Below the pieces are notes generated by a model that was not told the origin of the DNA, did not search any database, and saw nothing but the letters and a program-made list of their open reading frames with translations. This document shows, in pieces, positions 3,940 to 42,136 of a stretch of 64,000 bases of DNA (position 1 is its first letter; every line of letters begins with the position of its first letter). Location: positions 62,001-126,000 of the forward strand of contig QCBM01000001.1 in the NCBI GenBank assembly GCA_003281605.1, read 5' to 3'. This stretch comes from Prochlorococcus sp. AG-347-I06 (lineage in GTDB: Bacteria > Cyanobacteriota > Cyanobacteriia > PCC-6307 > Cyanobiaceae). The translations under genes were made by a program, and so were the position numbers.

Positions 3940-5703
3940 GTGACCCTTACTTCGAGATCCTTTTCAAAGGGTAGTTCAAAAAATGAGAATCCAGTTTGGA
4001 TAACTGGTGCAGATGCACTAATGGATTCTTTAAAAATTCATGGAGTAAAAGTTATATTTGGATATCCTGGTGGGGCCATACTACCAATATATGACGCTGT
4101 TCATAAGGCAGAACAAGATGGTTGGTTAAAGCATTATATGGTTAGGCATGAACAGGGTGGTTCACATGCGGCTGATGGATATGCAAGATCTACTGGTGAA
4201 GTAGGAGTATGTTTTGGAACCTCAGGCCCAGGTGCAACAAATTTGGTAACTGGAATTGCCACTGCGCAAATGGATTCAGTTCCTCTAGTTGTAGTCACAG
4301 GTCAAGTCCCAAGACCTGCTATAGGGACAGACGCTTTTCAAGAAACTGATATTTTTGGCATAACTCTTCCAATAGTCAAACATTCATGGGTAATAAGGGA
4401 TCCTTCAGATATTGCGAAAGTAGTTTCTGAAGCTTTTTTTATAGCCTCATCTGGGAGGCCTGGCCCTGTTTTAATTGATATACCTAAAGATGTAGGTCAG
4501 GAGTTCTTTAATTATCAAAGAGTTTTGCCTGGTGAGATTATTCCTAAAGGATTTAAAAGGAACGGAGAAATTAATGATTGCGATATTAACAAGGCAATTA
4601 AATTAATAGAAGATTCTGAAAGACCTCTTCTATATGTAGGAGGTGGGGCAATATCTTCAGGAGCTCATGATGAAATTAAAACTTTGGCAAAGAATTATCA
4701 AATACCAGTTACCACAACCTTAATGGGGAAGGGTGCTTTTGATGAAAAAGACAATTTATCAGTAGGGATGTTAGGAATGCATGGAACTGCTTATGCAAAT
4801 TTTGCTGTTACAGAATGCGATCTTTTAATTGCTATTGGAGCTAGATTCGATGATAGGGTAACAGGGAAATTAGATACTTTTGCACCTAATGCAAAGGTAA
4901 TTCATATAGATATCGACCCAGCAGAAGTTAATAAAAATAGACGTGTAGATGTTGCAATTGTTTCTGATGTTTCAAAAGCTCTTTTGAAAATTAATGAACA
5001 ATCTCTAAAAAACAAATTTATATGTCAGACAAAAAACTGGTTAGAAAAAATTGATTTTTGGAAACATAAACACCCTTTATATGAACCGCCTAAAGAAGGA
5101 GAAATTTATCCTCAGGAAGTTCTTTTAAAAGTGAGGGAACTTTCACCAGAAGCTTATATAACTACAGATGTAGGACAACATCAGATGTGGGCTGCTCAAT
5201 ATCTTAGGAATTCTCCAAGAAAATGGATTAGTAGTGCAGGCTTAGGAACTATGGGTTTTGGATTACCAGCGGCAATTGGAGTAAAAGCAGCCTTACCTAA
5301 TTCAGATGTAATTTGTATTGCAGGAGATGCAAGTGTCTTAATGAATATTCAAGAATTAGGAACCTTATCTCAATATGGTCTAAAGGTGAAATTGATTATT
5401 ATCAATAACCGTTGGCAAGGGATGGTAAGACAATGGCAGGAAAGTTTCTATGATGAAAGATATTCCTCATCTGATATGAGTTGTGGTGAACCTGATTTTG
5501 TAAAACTTGCAGAGTCTTTTGGAGTTAAAGGATACTTAATTTCTGATAGAAAACAATTACAGAATGAAATAAAAAATGCACTTGATCATGACGGCCCTGC
5601 CTTGATTAATATCCTTGTCAGAAGAGGTGAAAATTGTTATCCAATGGTTCCTCCTGGTAAAAGTAATGCTCAAATGGTTGGATATGTTAATTGTGAAGAC
5701 TAA
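3940..5703 (+). CDS. ilvB: Acetolactate synthase, large catalytic subunit
   Basis: ThDP-dependent condensation of pyruvate with pyruvate or 2-oxobutyrate, the first shared step of valine, leucine and isoleucine synthesis. In the 587-residue protein [14 protein letters not shown] opens the PYR domain, Glu 71 in [16 protein letters not shown] is the ThDP-activating acid, [10 protein letters not shown] is the substrate channel, and [15 protein letters not shown] to [11 protein letters not shown] is the ThDP/Mg-binding motif. The length fits the family. The chosen start is GTG at 3940, as no nearer ATG precedes the conserved N-terminus. The regulatory subunit gene ilvH is not in this window. Confidence 0.97.
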
Positions 5704-5769
5704 TTTTTTTAAAAATTTGTCATTTTAAAAAATTAACTTTAGGATAATTAAAAAAAAGATATTTCTGAA

Positions 5770-6120
5770 TTGAAAAAATTATCAAAAATTCTAATTATAG
5801 TCTGTTTGATTGTTCTTAATCCTGTAATAGTAAACTCCGCCGAAATTCTTCAAATTAAAAGTTCAAATACTATTTTGGTAGGAGATCAAAATAGAAATTT
5901 AACTATTGGATTATTTTGTGTAGATGTAAATGAAAATGATGAGATTGAAGCAACTAATTTACTTAAGAGTGAATTCCCAAGAGGGAGCAAAGTGAAAATA
6001 AAGCCTTTTGGTTTCAAAGAGAATGTTTTGTTAGCCAAAGTTTTTAATATTAAGGGTACTAAGGAGATGACGGAATTATTGGTCGCTAAAAACTTAAGTA
6101 GTGAAATTTGTCCAAGTTAA
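5770..6120 (+). CDS. Small exported protein with possible SNase-like beta-barrel
   Basis: A 116-residue protein starting at a TTG. Residues 1-24 form a signal peptide: two lysines, a hydrophobic stretch IIVCLIVLNPVIV, and the likely cleavage after NSA. The rest, with the order SNTILVGDQNRNLTIGLFCVDV, a short helix EATNLLKSEF, GSKVKIKPF and a final LLVAKNLSSEIC, resembles the strand-helix pattern of staphylococcal-nuclease-like (thermonuclease) domains. The catalytic Arg/Asp/Glu set is not evident, so nuclease activity is doubtful. Two cysteines in the mature part could form a disulphide. It follows ilvB by 66 bases. The fold is my inference from pattern; the export signal is directly visible. 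Confidence 0.72.
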   Translation: MKKLSKILIIVCLIVLNPVIVNSAEILQIKSSNTILVGDQNRNLTIGLFCVDVNENDEIEATNLLKSEFPRGSKVKIKPFGFKENVLLAKVFNIKGTKEMTELLVAKNLSSEICPS

Positions 6121-6126
6121 ATATCT

Positions 6127-6909
6127 TTATGAGCAAATAAGATTCCATTGTCTCGAGATTGTTTTGCTCCTTCTCCAGGAATAAAATTCATTATTGAATT
6201 TGTATGTGCATAAATTTGAGATGTCTATATTTGTATGAGGGATGTTCTCATTTAAAAGTTGTCTGTAGGCAGATCTTTTTAGATCAAGTTGATTCAAGTT
6301 TTGCTCTTTTAAGTGATTTGAATCGCTAAAACAAAGATCTTTTATAGTTTTAGTCAATTTGACAGTTATGTTTTTGTTTTCGGCCTTTCTAAAAAATTCT
6401 TTGAGTGTCATTCTATCAACTAGATAATGTTCCTTAGAAATCGCTGGTCCTATTGCAACAAGTAAGTCATCTCTAGATGTCCCAAAAGTATCGAAAATTT
6501 TCACCAGATTTTTTATTATTTTTTTTTCTAAACCTTTTCTTCCGCAATGCAAGGTTGCCACATTTCTTGTCCTTTTATCGGCAAAAAATATTGGCATACA
6601 ATCAGCTGTGTAAACCCATAAGTTTTGACCGCATTTATCGCCAACAAGACCATCTGCATCAGTCTTAGTTCCTTTTTGCGAATAAGATCCAAATACTATG
6701 AAATTACTGTGAATTTGATTGGAAACACAATTTATGGAATTTTCATTAAAGTGATTCCCTAATAATTGAAGAAATTTCTCAGAGCAAGACTTCGTGAAGT
6801 ATGCATGTTTGAAATTATTTTGACTAAGAATAGGTGATGAATAATAGTCAATTTTTTTGTTTTGAATATAAATTTCATCTTTTGAGAAATATATTTCTTT
6901 GTAAGGAAT
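6127..6909 (-). CDS. Laccase-domain (YfiH/PgeF, DUF152) protein with apparent ATT start
   Basis: Family members are multi-copper-oxidase-unrelated purine-nucleoside and peptidoglycan-editing enzymes. On the minus strand an open frame runs from a TAA at 6940-6942 to the stop at 6127, and the conserved blocks NQIHSNFIVFGS, TKTDADGLV, VYTADCMPIFFAD, ATLHCGRKG and LVAIGPAISKEHYLVD are all in it. The first ATG, at 6597, falls inside the conserved ADCMPI block, so it cannot be the true start. No ATG, GTG or TTG exists upstream in frame. An ATT at 6907-6909 has AGGAG eight bases ahead (6918-6922) and would give 260 residues, the family's usual length. The gene follows the Tab2-like gene closely. Confidence 0.85.
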   Translation of the reverse strand: MPYKEIYFSKDEIYIQNKKIDYYSSPILSQNNFKHAYFTKSCSEKFLQLLGNHFNENSINCVSNQIHSNFIVFGSYSQKGTKTDADGLVGDKCGQNLWVYTADCMPIFFADKRTRNVATLHCGRKGLEKKIIKNLVKIFDTFGTSRDDLLVAIGPAISKEHYLVDRMTLKEFFRKAENKNITVKLTKTIKDLCFSDSNHLKEQNLNQLDLKRSAYRQLLNENIPHTNIDISNLCTYKFNNEFYSWRRSKTISRQWNLICS

Positions 6910-6931
6910 AGTGCCTGCTCCTAAACTGAAT

Positions 6932-7837
6932 TTATGAAATTAATTCAATATCTCTTAAGATCCAGAATCCTGCAAATTTTTCGATATACGGCGTTGACTG
7001 TATGGAAATAAATTGATAACCAAAAGAATTTTTTTTATTCTCTAAAAACTTTGTATGCAAAATACTTGCATCTTTTTCTGGTAAATCAGTTACCAGCCAC
7101 TTATCATCTTCTGAAGCTTCAAGTATGAGTTGGTTCTTATTTACGACTAATTTAATAGGTTCTAAACAACTAAACCATGCAGAAAGTGCTAAAGATCTAT
7201 TTTTGCTAAAAAGTCTTAATCCTGGAACTAAGTAATTATCATCTAAATCTTTCTGAATTGGGAAAATATCTCCAAATTCTATAGGCCAATTTTCTGCTGA
7301 TTTTAATTCGCCAATTGATATTTCAGAGATAGTTAATGCATCACCTCTTACTGCTTCTGGTAGAGGTGTAGGAGAGTTTTCCATTTTAGAAGTAAAAGTA
7401 GGAGCTAGTACACCTCTTACATAACCTTTTTCCTTTGGATAAATCTCTTTTTCAAGAAATTCGATTCTATCTAATAAATTGTAAGTTCTCCTACTTACAA
7501 CAGCCTCAATACTTACGGCCTCAAGAGATTTCGTAATGATCGATTTCATTGACGACCTCCAGAATCGAACTATGGAAGGTTTCTCCCACCCTTGATTTTT
7601 TGCTTCACTTATTGCTTCATTTAGCGCCTTTACAAGCCACACTGAATTAACTTCATTAGCAGGGCAGTTTTTATTCCAAAGAAAAACATCTTGTGTCTTA
7701 TAACTTCTAGTAGAGCAGATAATTAATTCCCACCTTTTTTTTCCATTTGATTCAATAATTGGTCTTGAATAAAAGTCTAATTCCCAATCTGAAATTTTTA
7801 ATTTAAGACTTGACTCCATTTTTTTATTAATGTTCAT
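6932..7837 (-). CDS. Tab2/Atab2-family RNA-binding protein
   Basis: A 301-residue protein of the DUF1092 family. The N-terminal SDWELDFYSRPI, KRWELIICS and the middle GWEKPSIVRFWRSSM are the signatures, and the C-terminal LPEKDASILHTKFLE and AGFWILRD follow family order. The plant and algal members (Tab2, Atab2) bind mRNA and are needed to translate photosystem I psaB; the cyanobacterial role is less clear but likely also photosystem assembly or translation. It overlaps the S1-protein gene by four bases (7834-7837), so the two are translationally coupled. That pairing of two RNA-binding proteins fits a role in translation. Confidence 0.9.
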   Translation of the reverse strand: MNINKKMESSLKLKISDWELDFYSRPIIESNGKKRWELIICSTRSYKTQDVFLWNKNCPANEVNSVWLVKALNEAISEAKNQGWEKPSIVRFWRSSMKSIITKSLEAVSIEAVVSRRTYNLLDRIEFLEKEIYPKEKGYVRGVLAPTFTSKMENSPTPLPEAVRGDALTISEISIGELKSAENWPIEFGDIFPIQKDLDDNYLVPGLRLFSKNRSLALSAWFSCLEPIKLVVNKNQLILEASEDDKWLVTDLPEKDASILHTKFLENKKNSFGYQFISIQSTPYIEKFAGFWILRDIELIS

Positions 7838-9039
7838 TTATCTTGATCTTTTTTATCGAAGAGTGCTTTTGTTTTTAGTGCTCTCTCAGTGGCTTCTTGC
7901 ATAACTTTTTGCTTATCAATAATTAATTCTCCCGCAGTGTTTTCTAGGAGTGCAGTATTGAGACCAATACGACCTTTTTCGAGGTCTATTTCAGATATTA
8001 AAGCTTTTATCATTTCTCCTTCTCTAAAAACTTCTCTTAAAGAACGAATCGATCCATTTGTTAGTGAGGATTGATGAAGAAGTCCACTAGCTCCTCCTAA
8101 ATCTATAAAGAAGCCATATGGTTTTACTGCTAAAACTTCTCCTTCAATTAATTGACCTAACTCTAAACTTGTAAGTTTAGAGACTAATGATGCTTTCTTT
8201 TCAGAGAGAACTAATTTTCTGGATTCTGGATTCACCTCAAGAAACGCTACTTTTAGAGTTTTGCCAACAAAAGATTGATAATCTTGACCATCTTCAAGTT
8301 GGGATCTTGGGATGAATCCTCTTAATCCATCTACATCACACGTAAGCCCACCTCTATTAAATCCATTAATTAAAACGTTAATTAATTCTCCATTTTTTGC
8401 CAAACTCGATACTTTCTCCCAACTTTGCCTGAGAATTAATGCCCGAGCGCTCACTGTTACCATCCCATCAGCATTTTGTTCTTTAATAACCAAAACTTCC
8501 ATTTCAAGGCCTATAGAAAACTTTTCTTTAAAGTTAGTGATAACACCCAAACCACATTCTTTTTTGGGCATATAACCAGGTGCTTTTCCGCCAATGTCAA
8601 CATATAGTCCATCACTTTCGATGGCTATAACCTTACCTGAAATTGTTTCTCCTGTAGCGCCAATTGGCTCATTTGCATTTAAAGCCTCCAAAAAAGCACT
8701 TTCATCAAAATCGAATTCATCAACTGTTCTTTCTAATTGAAAATCTGTGTTTTGCTCAGAAAAATTAAGGGGTCTATTTAAGTCTTGTTGAGTTAAATTT
8801 TGTTGAGAAATATCAAAATCTTTGGTGTTCTTATTATTATCCTCAATCTTTTTTACTGAATCAGTGTTAATAATTTGCGGTTTTATTACGATATCTTCTT
8901 TTTTAATCTCTTCTTGCGAATTGGTTTGCTCATAATCTATTTTTTGAGTCTCTTTCTTGCTTATGTGAAGTACCTGAAGAGGTTTTTTATTGCCCTTTGG
9001 TTGGATATTCTCTTGGGCATTTTTATTACTGACTCCCAT
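7834..9039 (-). CDS. Ribosomal protein S1-type protein with three S1 domains
   Basis: A 401-residue protein. Residues 1-125 are a low-complexity, charged and Gln/Asn-rich leader. Three S1 RNA-binding domains follow at about 131-200 (GETISGKVIAIESDGLYVDIGG), 216-285 (GLTCDVDGLRGFIPRSQL) and 300-369 (VKPYGFFIDLGGASGLLHQS). Cyanobacteria have two S1 paralogues; the long acidic-to-polar leader and the three domains suit the rpsA/nbp1-like member that helps mRNA bind the 30S subunit. The exact paralogue is not certain, so I leave the symbol open. It is the first gene of a minus-strand run with the Tab2-like and laccase-domain genes. Confidence 0.9.
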   Translation of the reverse strand: MGVSNKNAQENIQPKGNKKPLQVLHISKKETQKIDYEQTNSQEEIKKEDIVIKPQIINTDSVKKIEDNNKNTKDFDISQQNLTQQDLNRPLNFSEQNTDFQLERTVDEFDFDESAFLEALNANEPIGATGETISGKVIAIESDGLYVDIGGKAPGYMPKKECGLGVITNFKEKFSIGLEMEVLVIKEQNADGMVTVSARALILRQSWEKVSSLAKNGELINVLINGFNRGGLTCDVDGLRGFIPRSQLEDGQDYQSFVGKTLKVAFLEVNPESRKLVLSEKKASLVSKLTSLELGQLIEGEVLAVKPYGFFIDLGGASGLLHQSSLTNGSIRSLREVFREGEMIKALISEIDLEKGRIGLNTALLENTAGELIIDKQKVMQEATERALKTKALFDKKDQDK

Positions 9040-9105
9040 CGTTGGTAAAATAAGGATAATTAATTATTAACATACTCTAAATGTTAATACTCAAAATTAA
9101 AATTA

Positions 9106-9900
9106 ATGAACTTTAAACCAATACCTGATAAATTTGAATATTTAAATTGGCAAGAAATTGAATGTGTTGCTAAAAACAAAAGATCAACAGTGATCTGGCC
9201 ATTCGGTGCTGTTGAGCAACATGGACCGCATTTGCCTCTTGCTACGGACAGTATTTTTGTTGATGAAATTATTAGCGAAGTTTTTAAATTATTCTCTGCA
9301 GATATTCCATTAAAAAAACTTCCAACCCAATACATTGGTTTTTCTCCGGAACATAAGGGTTTCCCCGGGACGATTTCACTTTCCTCAAATTTAATAACCT
9401 CAATGATAAAGGAAGTCGGAGGTCAATTATCTGAAATGGGTTTTAAAAGATTGATATTAATGAATGGACATGGAGGTCAAATTTCACTACTAAATACAGC
9501 TGCAAGAGAGCTAAGAAGTGTCGCACCAAGCATGGCAGTTTTCCCTTGTTTCTTATGGAGCGGTGTGAATGGATTGAGTGAATTGTTAACAAAAACTGAG
9601 ATTGAGGATGGGCTTCATGCTTCTTTAGCTGAAACGAGTTTGATGCTGGCTTTGAAACCCGAATTAGTAGGTGATGAACGCCCAAATGAGGGTAATAAAG
9701 TAGAGATCCCTGAAGGTTGGAGTTTAGAGGGCAATGCGCCTACTGCTTGGCTTACTGACGACTTCAGTAAATCAGGTGTTATTGGAGATAGTAGAGGAGC
9801 AAATGAGTCTTTAGGGAAAAATTTAAAGGAATTATTGATTAATCATTGGTTCAGATTGATTATGAATCTGATGCAATCAGATTGGCCAAACAATTCTTAA
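9106..9900 (+). CDS. Creatininase-family amidohydrolase
   Basis: A 264-residue metal-dependent amidohydrolase of the creatinine amidohydrolase superfamily. The block IWPFGAVEQHGPHLPLATDS near residue 30-49 carries Glu and His metal ligands; LILMNGHGGQISLL near 122-135 and DGLHASLAETSLML near 165-178 supply the remaining ligands. Members also include the archaeal FAPy deformylase ArfB and mycofactocin MftE, so the true substrate cannot be read from sequence. It is divergent from the S1-protein gene and ends 111 bases before the alkane genes, which may share its transcript. Confidence 0.88.
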   Translation: MNFKPIPDKFEYLNWQEIECVAKNKRSTVIWPFGAVEQHGPHLPLATDSIFVDEIISEVFKLFSADIPLKKLPTQYIGFSPEHKGFPGTISLSSNLITSMIKEVGGQLSEMGFKRLILMNGHGGQISLLNTAARELRSVAPSMAVFPCFLWSGVNGLSELLTKTEIEDGLHASLAETSLMLALKPELVGDERPNEGNKVEIPEGWSLEGNAPTAWLTDDFSKSGVIGDSRGANESLGKNLKELLINHWFRLIMNLMQSDWPNNS

Positions 9901-40771: not shown

Positions 40772-42136
40772 TTGGAATTTGAATTTGATTTAATTGTTGT
40801 TGGCGCTGGATCTGGAGGACTCGCGGCGGCTAAACGTGCGGCCAGTTATGGAGCAAAAGTCGCAATCATAGAAGCAAATCAAATAGGAGGAACTTGTGTG
40901 ATAAGGGGATGTGTGCCTAAGAAATTAATGGTTTATGCAGCTAAAAGTAAAAAAAATATGGATTCTTCTGAAGGTTATGGATTAAAAAATGAAGGTATTA
41001 ATTTTGAATCAAATATTTTGTTGAAGAATGTTAGAGAGGAGGTTTCTAGATTAAGTAATTTACATAGAAATTCTTTAAAAAAGTTGAATATAACTATTTT
41101 TGAAGGCTTAGGGAGATTTATTACTCAAAATGAATTAGAAATTATTTGTTCAAACACAAAGAAAATTAAAAAAAAAATAAGTGCAAAAAAAGTTCTTATT
41201 TCAGTTGGAGGTAAACCAAAGAAATTAAATATTCCTGGGGTAGATTTGGCATGGACTAGTGATGATATTTTTGAATTAGAAAAGTTTCCCAAATCAATTT
41301 TAATAGTAGGAGGTGGATATATTGCTTGTGAATTTGCTTCTATTTTCAGAAATTTAGGTACTGAAGTAACTCAATTAATTAGAGGTCAATATTTACTTAA
41401 TGGTTTTGATGAGGATCTTTCGTCATGCCTAGAGGAATCACCTACTTTTACAGAAATCAATATAATCTCCAATACTAAATTAAAGTCTATCAAGAAAGTA
41501 AATGGAAATCTGGAATCTACCCTAGACTCGGGAGACAAACTCCTAACTAATAATATCCTTATTGCTATAGGAAGAGAACCAAATCTTTCGCCTTTAAAGT
41601 TAGATTTTTTAAATCTTAAGATGGATGGCCAATATTTAGATGTCGATGAACTTAATCAAACAAGCAACGCAAATATTTTTGCAGTTGGCGATATCATAAA
41701 TAAGCCAAACTTAACTCCAGTAGCAATAGAACAAGGAAGAGTTTTTTCGGATAATTTTTTTAATGACCAAAAAAGAAAAGTAAATTATGAATATATCCCT
41801 AAGGCAGTTTTTACTATTCCAGAAATTTCAACAGTTGGCTTAAGTGAGAAAAGAGCTAAAGAGATTTACTCTGAAAAAAATATAAAAATTTTCAAATGCA
41901 AATTTACCCCTATGTCTAATACCTTTAAAAAGAATAAATCAAAATGTATGTTGAAGATTGTAGTTAATAAGCTAACTGACAAAATCCTAGGATGTCATAT
42001 GTTTGGAGAAACATCGTCCGAGATTATTCAAATGGTATCAATTTCATTAAATGCAGGGATAACAAAAAAAGACTTTGATATTACTATGGCTTTGCACCCA
42101 ACTATCTCCGAAGAATTTGTGACTATGTATGGATAA
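40772..42136 (+). CDS. gor: Glutathione reductase
   Basis: NADPH-dependent reduction of glutathione disulphide; 454 residues. VVGAGSGGLAAAKRAA binds FAD and GGTCVIRGCVPKK carries the redox-active Cys 42 and Cys 47. IVGGGYIACEFASIFRNLG binds NADPH, and the C-terminal LHPTISEEFVTMYG has the catalytic His-Glu pair. The start is TTG at 40772. It is divergent from the GST-like gene. Related enzymes such as trypanothione reductase are excluded on context. Confidence 0.95.
   Translation: MEFEFDLIVVGAGSGGLAAAKRAASYGAKVAIIEANQIGGTCVIRGCVPKKLMVYAAKSKKNMDSSEGYGLKNEGINFESNILLKNVREEVSRLSNLHRNSLKKLNITIFEGLGRFITQNELEIICSNTKKIKKKISAKKVLISVGGKPKKLNIPGVDLAWTSDDIFELEKFPKSILIVGGGYIACEFASIFRNLGTEVTQLIRGQYLLNGFDEDLSSCLEESPTFTEINIISNTKLKSIKKVNGNLESTLDSGDKLLTNNILIAIGREPNLSPLKLDFLNLKMDGQYLDVDELNQTSNANIFAVGDIINKPNLTPVAIEQGRVFSDNFFNDQKRKVNYEYIPKAVFTIPEISTVGLSEKRAKEIYSEKNIKIFKCKFTPMSNTFKKNKSKCMLKIVVNKLTDKILGCHMFGETSSEIIQMVSISLNAGITKKDFDITMALHPTISEEFVTMYG

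Follow-up and report, generated by a model that had tools for sequence, protein, structure and literature searches.

Where does translation of the pgeF gene begin in Prochlorococcus sp. AG-347-I06? The gene lies on the minus strand of the DNA stretch analysed here (the window, 64,000 nucleotides, to which all coordinates refer). An earlier note, made from the letters of the window, held that the conserved protein reaches upstream of the first ATG, that the frame has no ATG, GTG or TTG up to an in-frame TAA, and that an ATT preceded by AGGAG would yield a protein of 260 residues. It left a choice between a rare start and an error in the sequence. pgeF is a cell-wall quality-control gene; the activity of its family is the hydrolysis of UDP-MurNAc-L-Ser, which for the window protein is predicted from sequence. 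To our knowledge, natural AUU starts have been described for only a handful of bacterial genes. The features considered are as follows.

6127..6909, minus strand: pgeF coding sequence as read from the proposed AUU start, 260 amino acids plus stop
6598..6600, minus strand: codon of C104, the presumed catalytic cysteine (equivalent to YfiH Cys107 by motif and spacing)
6907..6909, minus strand: proposed AUU start codon; ATT, ATC or ATA in 141 of the 165 matching genomes of the genus
6910..6931, minus strand: spacer of 22 nt from the tab2 stop to the AUU
6918..6924, minus strand: putative Shine-Dalgarno (SD) sequence TTAGGAG, 8 nt before the AUU, complementary to the 16S rRNA 3' end
6940..6942, minus strand: upstream in-frame TAA closing the pgeF frame
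6932..7837, minus strand: gene for a tab2/Atab2-like RNA-binding protein, directly upstream of pgeF
7834..9039, minus strand: gene for an S1-domain protein, first in the order S1-like, tab2, pgeF; overlaps tab2 by 4 nt

Results

The reading frame, its product and its neighbours

Re-reading the minus strand gave a frame of 270 open codons (6127-6939) after the TAA, with no ATG, GTG or TTG in the window between that stop and the ATG at 6595-6597, and AGGAG was located at 6918-6922, 8 nt ahead of the ATT; the observations of the earlier note on these points are thus accurate. The first ATG sits within the catalytic core, directly after the C104 codon, so that a protein starting there would lack this cysteine. 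It is the program-made list of open reading frames that shortens pgeF to 156 residues.

In a profile search, the window protein scores above the curated cut-off of TIGR00726 (154.2 vs 141.15 bits) and matches PF02578 (Cu-oxidase_4) with an E-value of 3.6e-41 (141.6 bits, cut-off 22.9), and it is far under the cut-off of the E. coli-type model NF007998 (54.4 vs 369). Judged by these matches, the product of 6127-6909 is PgeF (YfiH, laccase-domain), a member of the Cu-oxidase_4 family. For E. coli YfiH, the catalytic triad is described as Asp89, Cys107 and His124, plus His71 (PMC8844914). Residues D86, C104, H121 and H67 of the window protein match these in the same order, with the same or nearly the same spacing (the equivalence comes from motif and spacing, not from a structural alignment), and are invariant in an alignment of 12 rows.

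The tab2 gene stands directly upstream of pgeF in all 138 loci checked and the S1-like gene is found in 137 (the two sets overlap). The same order on one strand, which occupies 6127-9039 in the window, is also present at 23 of 23 loci from other genera. The S1-domain protein has three S1 stretches and resembles models of ribosomal protein S1, with scores under the curated cut-offs. A cell-wall enzyme is preceded here by two translation-related RNA-binding proteins.

Start codons across the genus

A search for pgeF in 200 genomes of the genus gave matches in 165; 150 matches were listed, and 147 loci make up our main set. Locus counts below are not counts of independent events. The start position is occupied in the 165 genomes by ATT (134), ATC (4) or ATA (3), which we refer to jointly as AUH (141); the remainder have ATG or GTG (17, namely 16 ATG and one GTG), a TTG further upstream (4), or no visible start (3; G101, G097 and G173). 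The main set comprises 130 ATT, 4 ATC, 3 ATA, 9 ATG and 1 GTG, that is, 137 AUH and 10 ATG/GTG loci, and the 18 genomes outside it contribute 4 ATT (G193, G079, G195, G141), 7 ATG, the 4 upstream TTG and the 3 without a visible start. The TTG cases are four deeper members of the genus (L324-L327, about 50% identical), in which the usual start is absent and a TTG is found 8 or 9 codons upstream. A second collection of 80 named loci, which overlaps the first and to which the cultured isolates MIT 9314, MIT 9201 and MIT 9107 belong, has 78 ATT, 1 ATC and 1 ATA.

The earlier note expected a homologous strain with ATG, GTG or TTG in the same place to speak against an AUU start. Taken literally, such strains exist, the 16 ATG genomes and the GTG one; however, those that can be placed group apart from the AUH loci, and their leader is of another kind, poor in SD. 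As far as the sequences allow a judgement, they mark the same initiation site as the AUH loci rather than refuting the AUU reading.

The SD sequence and the spacer

The 16S rRNA 3' end in the AG-347-I06 genome reads GGATCACCTCCTAA and is complementary to TTAGGAG. Of the 137 AUH loci measured, 128 have GGAG 5-9 nt ahead of codon 1. This conservation, together with the recurrence of AUH in the genus, cultured isolates included, bears out the suggestion of a rare start.

Nine AUH loci are exceptions: two have GGGG in place, two (L020 and L071) have GGAG at 14 nt, and in five (L120, L126, L130, L133 and L134) the core was called lost by hand. In L020 and L071, a 6-nt insertion resembling a duplication has brought an ATA to a distance of 8 nt from GGAG and shifted the original ATT to 14 nt; AUA may now be the start in these two. 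All five core-lost loci have an upstream in-frame canonical codon (Fisher 3.4e-6). Since L130 keeps another 7-nt SD match (GAGGTGA, 5 nt before the ATT), L133 retains GGAG at a distance of 3 nt, and L126 is the sister of L130, we prefer the comparison based on all nine loci: an upstream in-frame canonical codon occurs in 5 of 9 loci without GGAG at 5-9 nt vs 8 of the 128 others (Fisher 3.5e-4, ignoring phylogeny). Going by their leaders, the five could possibly be natural escapes from AUU initiation.

None of the 16 ATG/GTG loci measured has an SD match of at least 5 nt; a match of 4 nt is seen in two, in one of them at a spacing of 2 nt. Nor does a 5-nt match precede any of the 67 open reading frames of the window with at least 100 amino acids, where the 4-nt core occurs in 3 of 67; the starts used are uncurated, being the first start after a stop, and an earlier SD count covered 37 of 41 ATG-first frames, four having been dropped by hand. 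This scarcity agrees with published accounts, which place Prochlorococcus marinus among SD-scarce organisms with an intact CCUCC (PMC10783764) and consider it likely not reliant on SD (PMC5607370). Between the tab2 stop and the start there are 22 nt in 117 of the 137 AUH loci (two unmeasured) and 10 nt in 8 of the 10 ATG/GTG loci.

How unusual is such a pair of signals? The window has 16 sites, pgeF included, where AGGAG is followed at 4-9 nt by a start-like codon (ATG, GTG, TTG, ATT, ATC or ATA) opening a frame of 60 codons or more, and most of the other 15 sites have coding-like scores and seemingly lie inside genes. The pattern TTAGGAG-N5-9-ATT is found 63 times in the genome vs 52 for a reversed control. 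An SD with ATT alone is therefore not rare, and its weight comes from position and clade-wide conservation. In the 30 of these 63 sites that were inspected, pgeF is the sole frame of at least 60 codons without a canonical start upstream or within 10 codons; this search for further AUU genes concerns a single SD form followed by ATT.

Some other observations on the window can be mentioned here. The plus-strand frame 40772-42136, for which the list of open reading frames has a TTG start, contains at 40898 a GTG with AGGAG 8 nt ahead of it; this GTG is perhaps the true start, giving 412 amino acids. Ten further window frames look coding-like before their first start, and the five of these compared with Pfam gave no match at E up to 0.1. 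No consistent RNA structure was observed over the pgeF start in the four leaders folded (z-scores 0.90, 0.12, -2.08 for L135, and -0.36), and Rfam gave no match in 5500-9500 at E up to 1. Promoter-like sites number 12 against 14.1 expected and terminator-like sites 1 against 1.8. Among viral contigs, 20 pattern matches were found, none of which is a relative.

Origin of the proposed AUU start and changes at codon 1

The gene trees were built without the start codon. AUH loci form a single clade with local support of 1.0 in both (137 of 147 loci in one, 138 of 158 in the other). In the larger tree, which consists of the main set and 11 further loci and is rooted on the 4 TTG loci, a second clade unites the 16 ATG/GTG loci (0.874). 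All 23 family loci from other genera have a canonical codon near the same site, the first being TTG in 12, ATG in 9 and GTG in 2 (the first canonical codon is meant, not a proven start). A single change from a canonical codon to AUU with SD gain, retained since, would be the simplest history of these sequences.

Reconstruction along the tree gives seven changes in codon 1, all in its last position (four times to C, three times to A), and none in bases 1 and 2, while a four-fold degenerate T changes about 10.7 times on the same tree. As long as the codon stays AUU, AUC or AUA, its third base thus varies almost freely, and bases 1 and 2 do not vary. Four-fold T sites in pgeF change per site 4.70 times to C, 4.59 times to A and 1.38 times to G.

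These figures bear on whether the AUU has any regulatory meaning. A sub-case of the explanation that we favour is that AUU is the start but has no such meaning, the codon having drifted once the SD had been gained, with AUU, AUC, AUA and perhaps AUG being equivalent. The 4 changes to C and 3 to A are near the four-fold expectation, and no regained AUG vs 1.38 expected under neutrality (P = 0.25, calculated by hand; the tree has 8.65 substitutions per site) is not significant, so selection against AUG is not proven. On the other hand, selection in prokaryotes generally favours AUG, and a change from AUG to AUU was counted in 1 of 61,358 reconstructed starts (PMC5622118). If a preference raised the fixation of AUG to over about 2.2-fold the neutral rate, at least one AUG would be expected on the tree with a 95% chance (again by hand), and its absence argues against a strong AUG preference. 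We take drift without regulatory meaning seriously, as something that may be so, but would not place it first.

Is codon 1 the start?

A different objection is that translation starts elsewhere, at a downstream GTG, TTG or ATG, at an upstream codon or by a frameshift from tab2, and that codon 1 is an internal isoleucine. Its changes are all synonymous for isoleucine, just as an internal residue would give, and in 13 of the 137 AUH loci an in-frame ATG, GTG or TTG upstream, between codons -13 and -3, may serve as the start instead.

Against this, all 137 main-set AUH loci have an in-frame stop 16 to 2 codons before the AUH, the nearest being at codon -5 in 9 loci and at codon -2 in L113. No canonical codon lies between the upstream stop and codon 1 in 124 of the 137, and in those 124 the first downstream one has an offset of 28-104 (at least 49 in 121), so that conserved sequence would be lost. 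The AUH codons at positions 6, 13 and 15 give way to non-start codons in some lineages, and the 22-nt spacer of the window, read by eye, has no ATG, GTG or TTG in any frame. In codons 2-45 no stop is gained in any reconstructed event, and synonymous and nonsynonymous events number 279 and 332 there vs 67 and 183 in the leader (Fisher 2.6e-7); the leader has less synonymous bias, although its codons were taken without gap alignment and indels inflate its changes. We conclude from the leaders that their stops exclude most upstream starts. With these stops in place and no other start available, initiation at AUU is the best reading, even though an internal isoleucine would look alike; it is strongly inferred from the sequences compared, and a start elsewhere seems to us quite improbable.

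The main alternative of the earlier note was an indel, introduced in sequencing or assembly, that hides a normal start codon, and many of the named records are indeed single-cell assemblies. More than 130 assemblies would need to share such an error: the ATT with its frame and SD is found in 130 main-set loci of separate genomes, and the cultured isolates MIT 9314, MIT 9201 and MIT 9107 have ATT at the pgeF start. With the same ATT in so many independent assemblies, a repeated sequencing error is not credible.

That pgeF is decaying on its way to loss can be dismissed just as readily: two matches are broken and 35 of the 200 genomes have no match, but most of those listed among the latter are incomplete, 63 of 66 good genomes keep the gene, no internal stop occurs among the 150 matches listed, and the presumed catalytic residues do not vary in the 12 rows. 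The two broken matches are in G108 (ATG) and G141 (ATT), genomes with completeness of 77 and 63, and have 63-codon frames; the frame is cut by a TAA in G108:C6:22438-23212, and two pgeF parts lie on opposite strands in G141:C1:113391-114320. Either real damage or an assembly error may be the cause.

Discussion

We believe that pgeF of this clade is very probably translated from AUU with the help of an acquired SD, and that the comparison of loci points to one origin, a growth of the spacer and an interchange of AUU, AUC and AUA thereafter. In the ancestor, pgeF would have started with a canonical codon, as the sister group does with ATG, and would have lacked a strong SD. On a single occasion, before the AUH loci diverged, the tab2 spacer would have lengthened by about 12 nt (from about 10 to 22 nt), an SD would have arisen and AUU would have replaced the earlier start codon; the three AUH codons would now replace one another. 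TTAGGAG would pair with the 16S anti-SD, placing the 30S subunit on the AUU, and so strong an SD would hold the subunit long enough; initiator fMet-tRNA would read AUU despite the third-position mismatch, and the protein presumably begins with Met. Initiation would be weak, discriminated against by IF3 and dependent on the SD, and would keep PgeF low.

IF3 is reported to discriminate against codons of the AUU class, where the initiator tRNA has a third-position mismatch, and E. coli infC likewise has an AUU start of this class (PMC5472188). By analogy, AUU initiation at pgeF is probably weak and IF3-sensitive. The earlier note referred to infC for its AUU and feedback control, and the parallel holds as an analogy for the start codon; infC itself, however, starts in this genus with an ATG directly after an in-frame TGA in all 30 loci inspected of the 50 found (L148-L177; L157 in the AG-347-I06 genome), with no evident SD sequence in the loci read. 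AUU gives IF3 feedback in E. coli, whereas here the AUU gene is pgeF and infC has ATG; the genus thus seems to lack the classical feedback on IF3 through AUU. IF3 feedback via an AUU infC was accordingly rejected as an explanation.

The E. coli chromosome has another gene with an AUU start, pcnB, which this codon limits. It differs from pgeF as another gene in another phylum, and pcnB is not known to have acquired an SD.

The nearest parallel is sigR of Streptomyces, as PMC5472188 describes it: a genus-wide non-canonical start (34 species, GTC in 32 and GTT in 2) next to a ribosome-binding site that is both strong and conserved. It differs in that the codon is GTC and the product is a sigma factor, and IF3 repression was demonstrated there by experiment, while for pgeF it is presumed. 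Borrelia burgdorferi pncA (BBE22) is, like pgeF, a metabolic enzyme gene with an AUU start, and its database entry was truncated to a later start (PMC13398362); that account, as far as it concerns this gene, describes one species and gives no clade-wide comparison. An AUU start is also reported for Yersinia rcsD-Hpt (PMC10191623). Flavobacterium rpsU has an extended SD, in a genome with hardly any use of SDs, and is described as autoregulated by bS21-free ribosomes (PMC9976891); a strong SD in an SD-poor genome is common to it and pgeF, but its start codon is not presented as unusual. pgeF is set apart from the known AUU genes by the ATG of infC here and by having acquired an SD in a genome where SDs are scarce. 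We found no report of an AUU start in Prochlorococcus among the open-licence papers listed.

It is tempting to go further and to propose that pgeF, the last gene of the conserved order, has a private initiation channel: most proteins of this SD-scarce cell would be started without any SD pairing, and pgeF would need such pairing as well as an IF3-tolerated AUU. PgeF output would then report IF3 or free anti-SD (with S1 limiting) and couple the editing of cell-wall precursors to translation capacity, and AUG would be selected against. We consider this doubtful, and offer it as speculation.

An AUU start would here be fixed, outside infC, in a clade that counts over 100 genomes at species level, within a photosynthetic genus that is very abundant in the sea. 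Gene callers limited to ATG, GTG and TTG are predicted to truncate or miss pgeF throughout the AUH clade. Comparing pgeF across these genomes may show how a disfavoured codon can come to serve as a start and persist, and the AUU of pgeF would make IF3 discrimination and the use of SD sequences testable in cyanobacteria.
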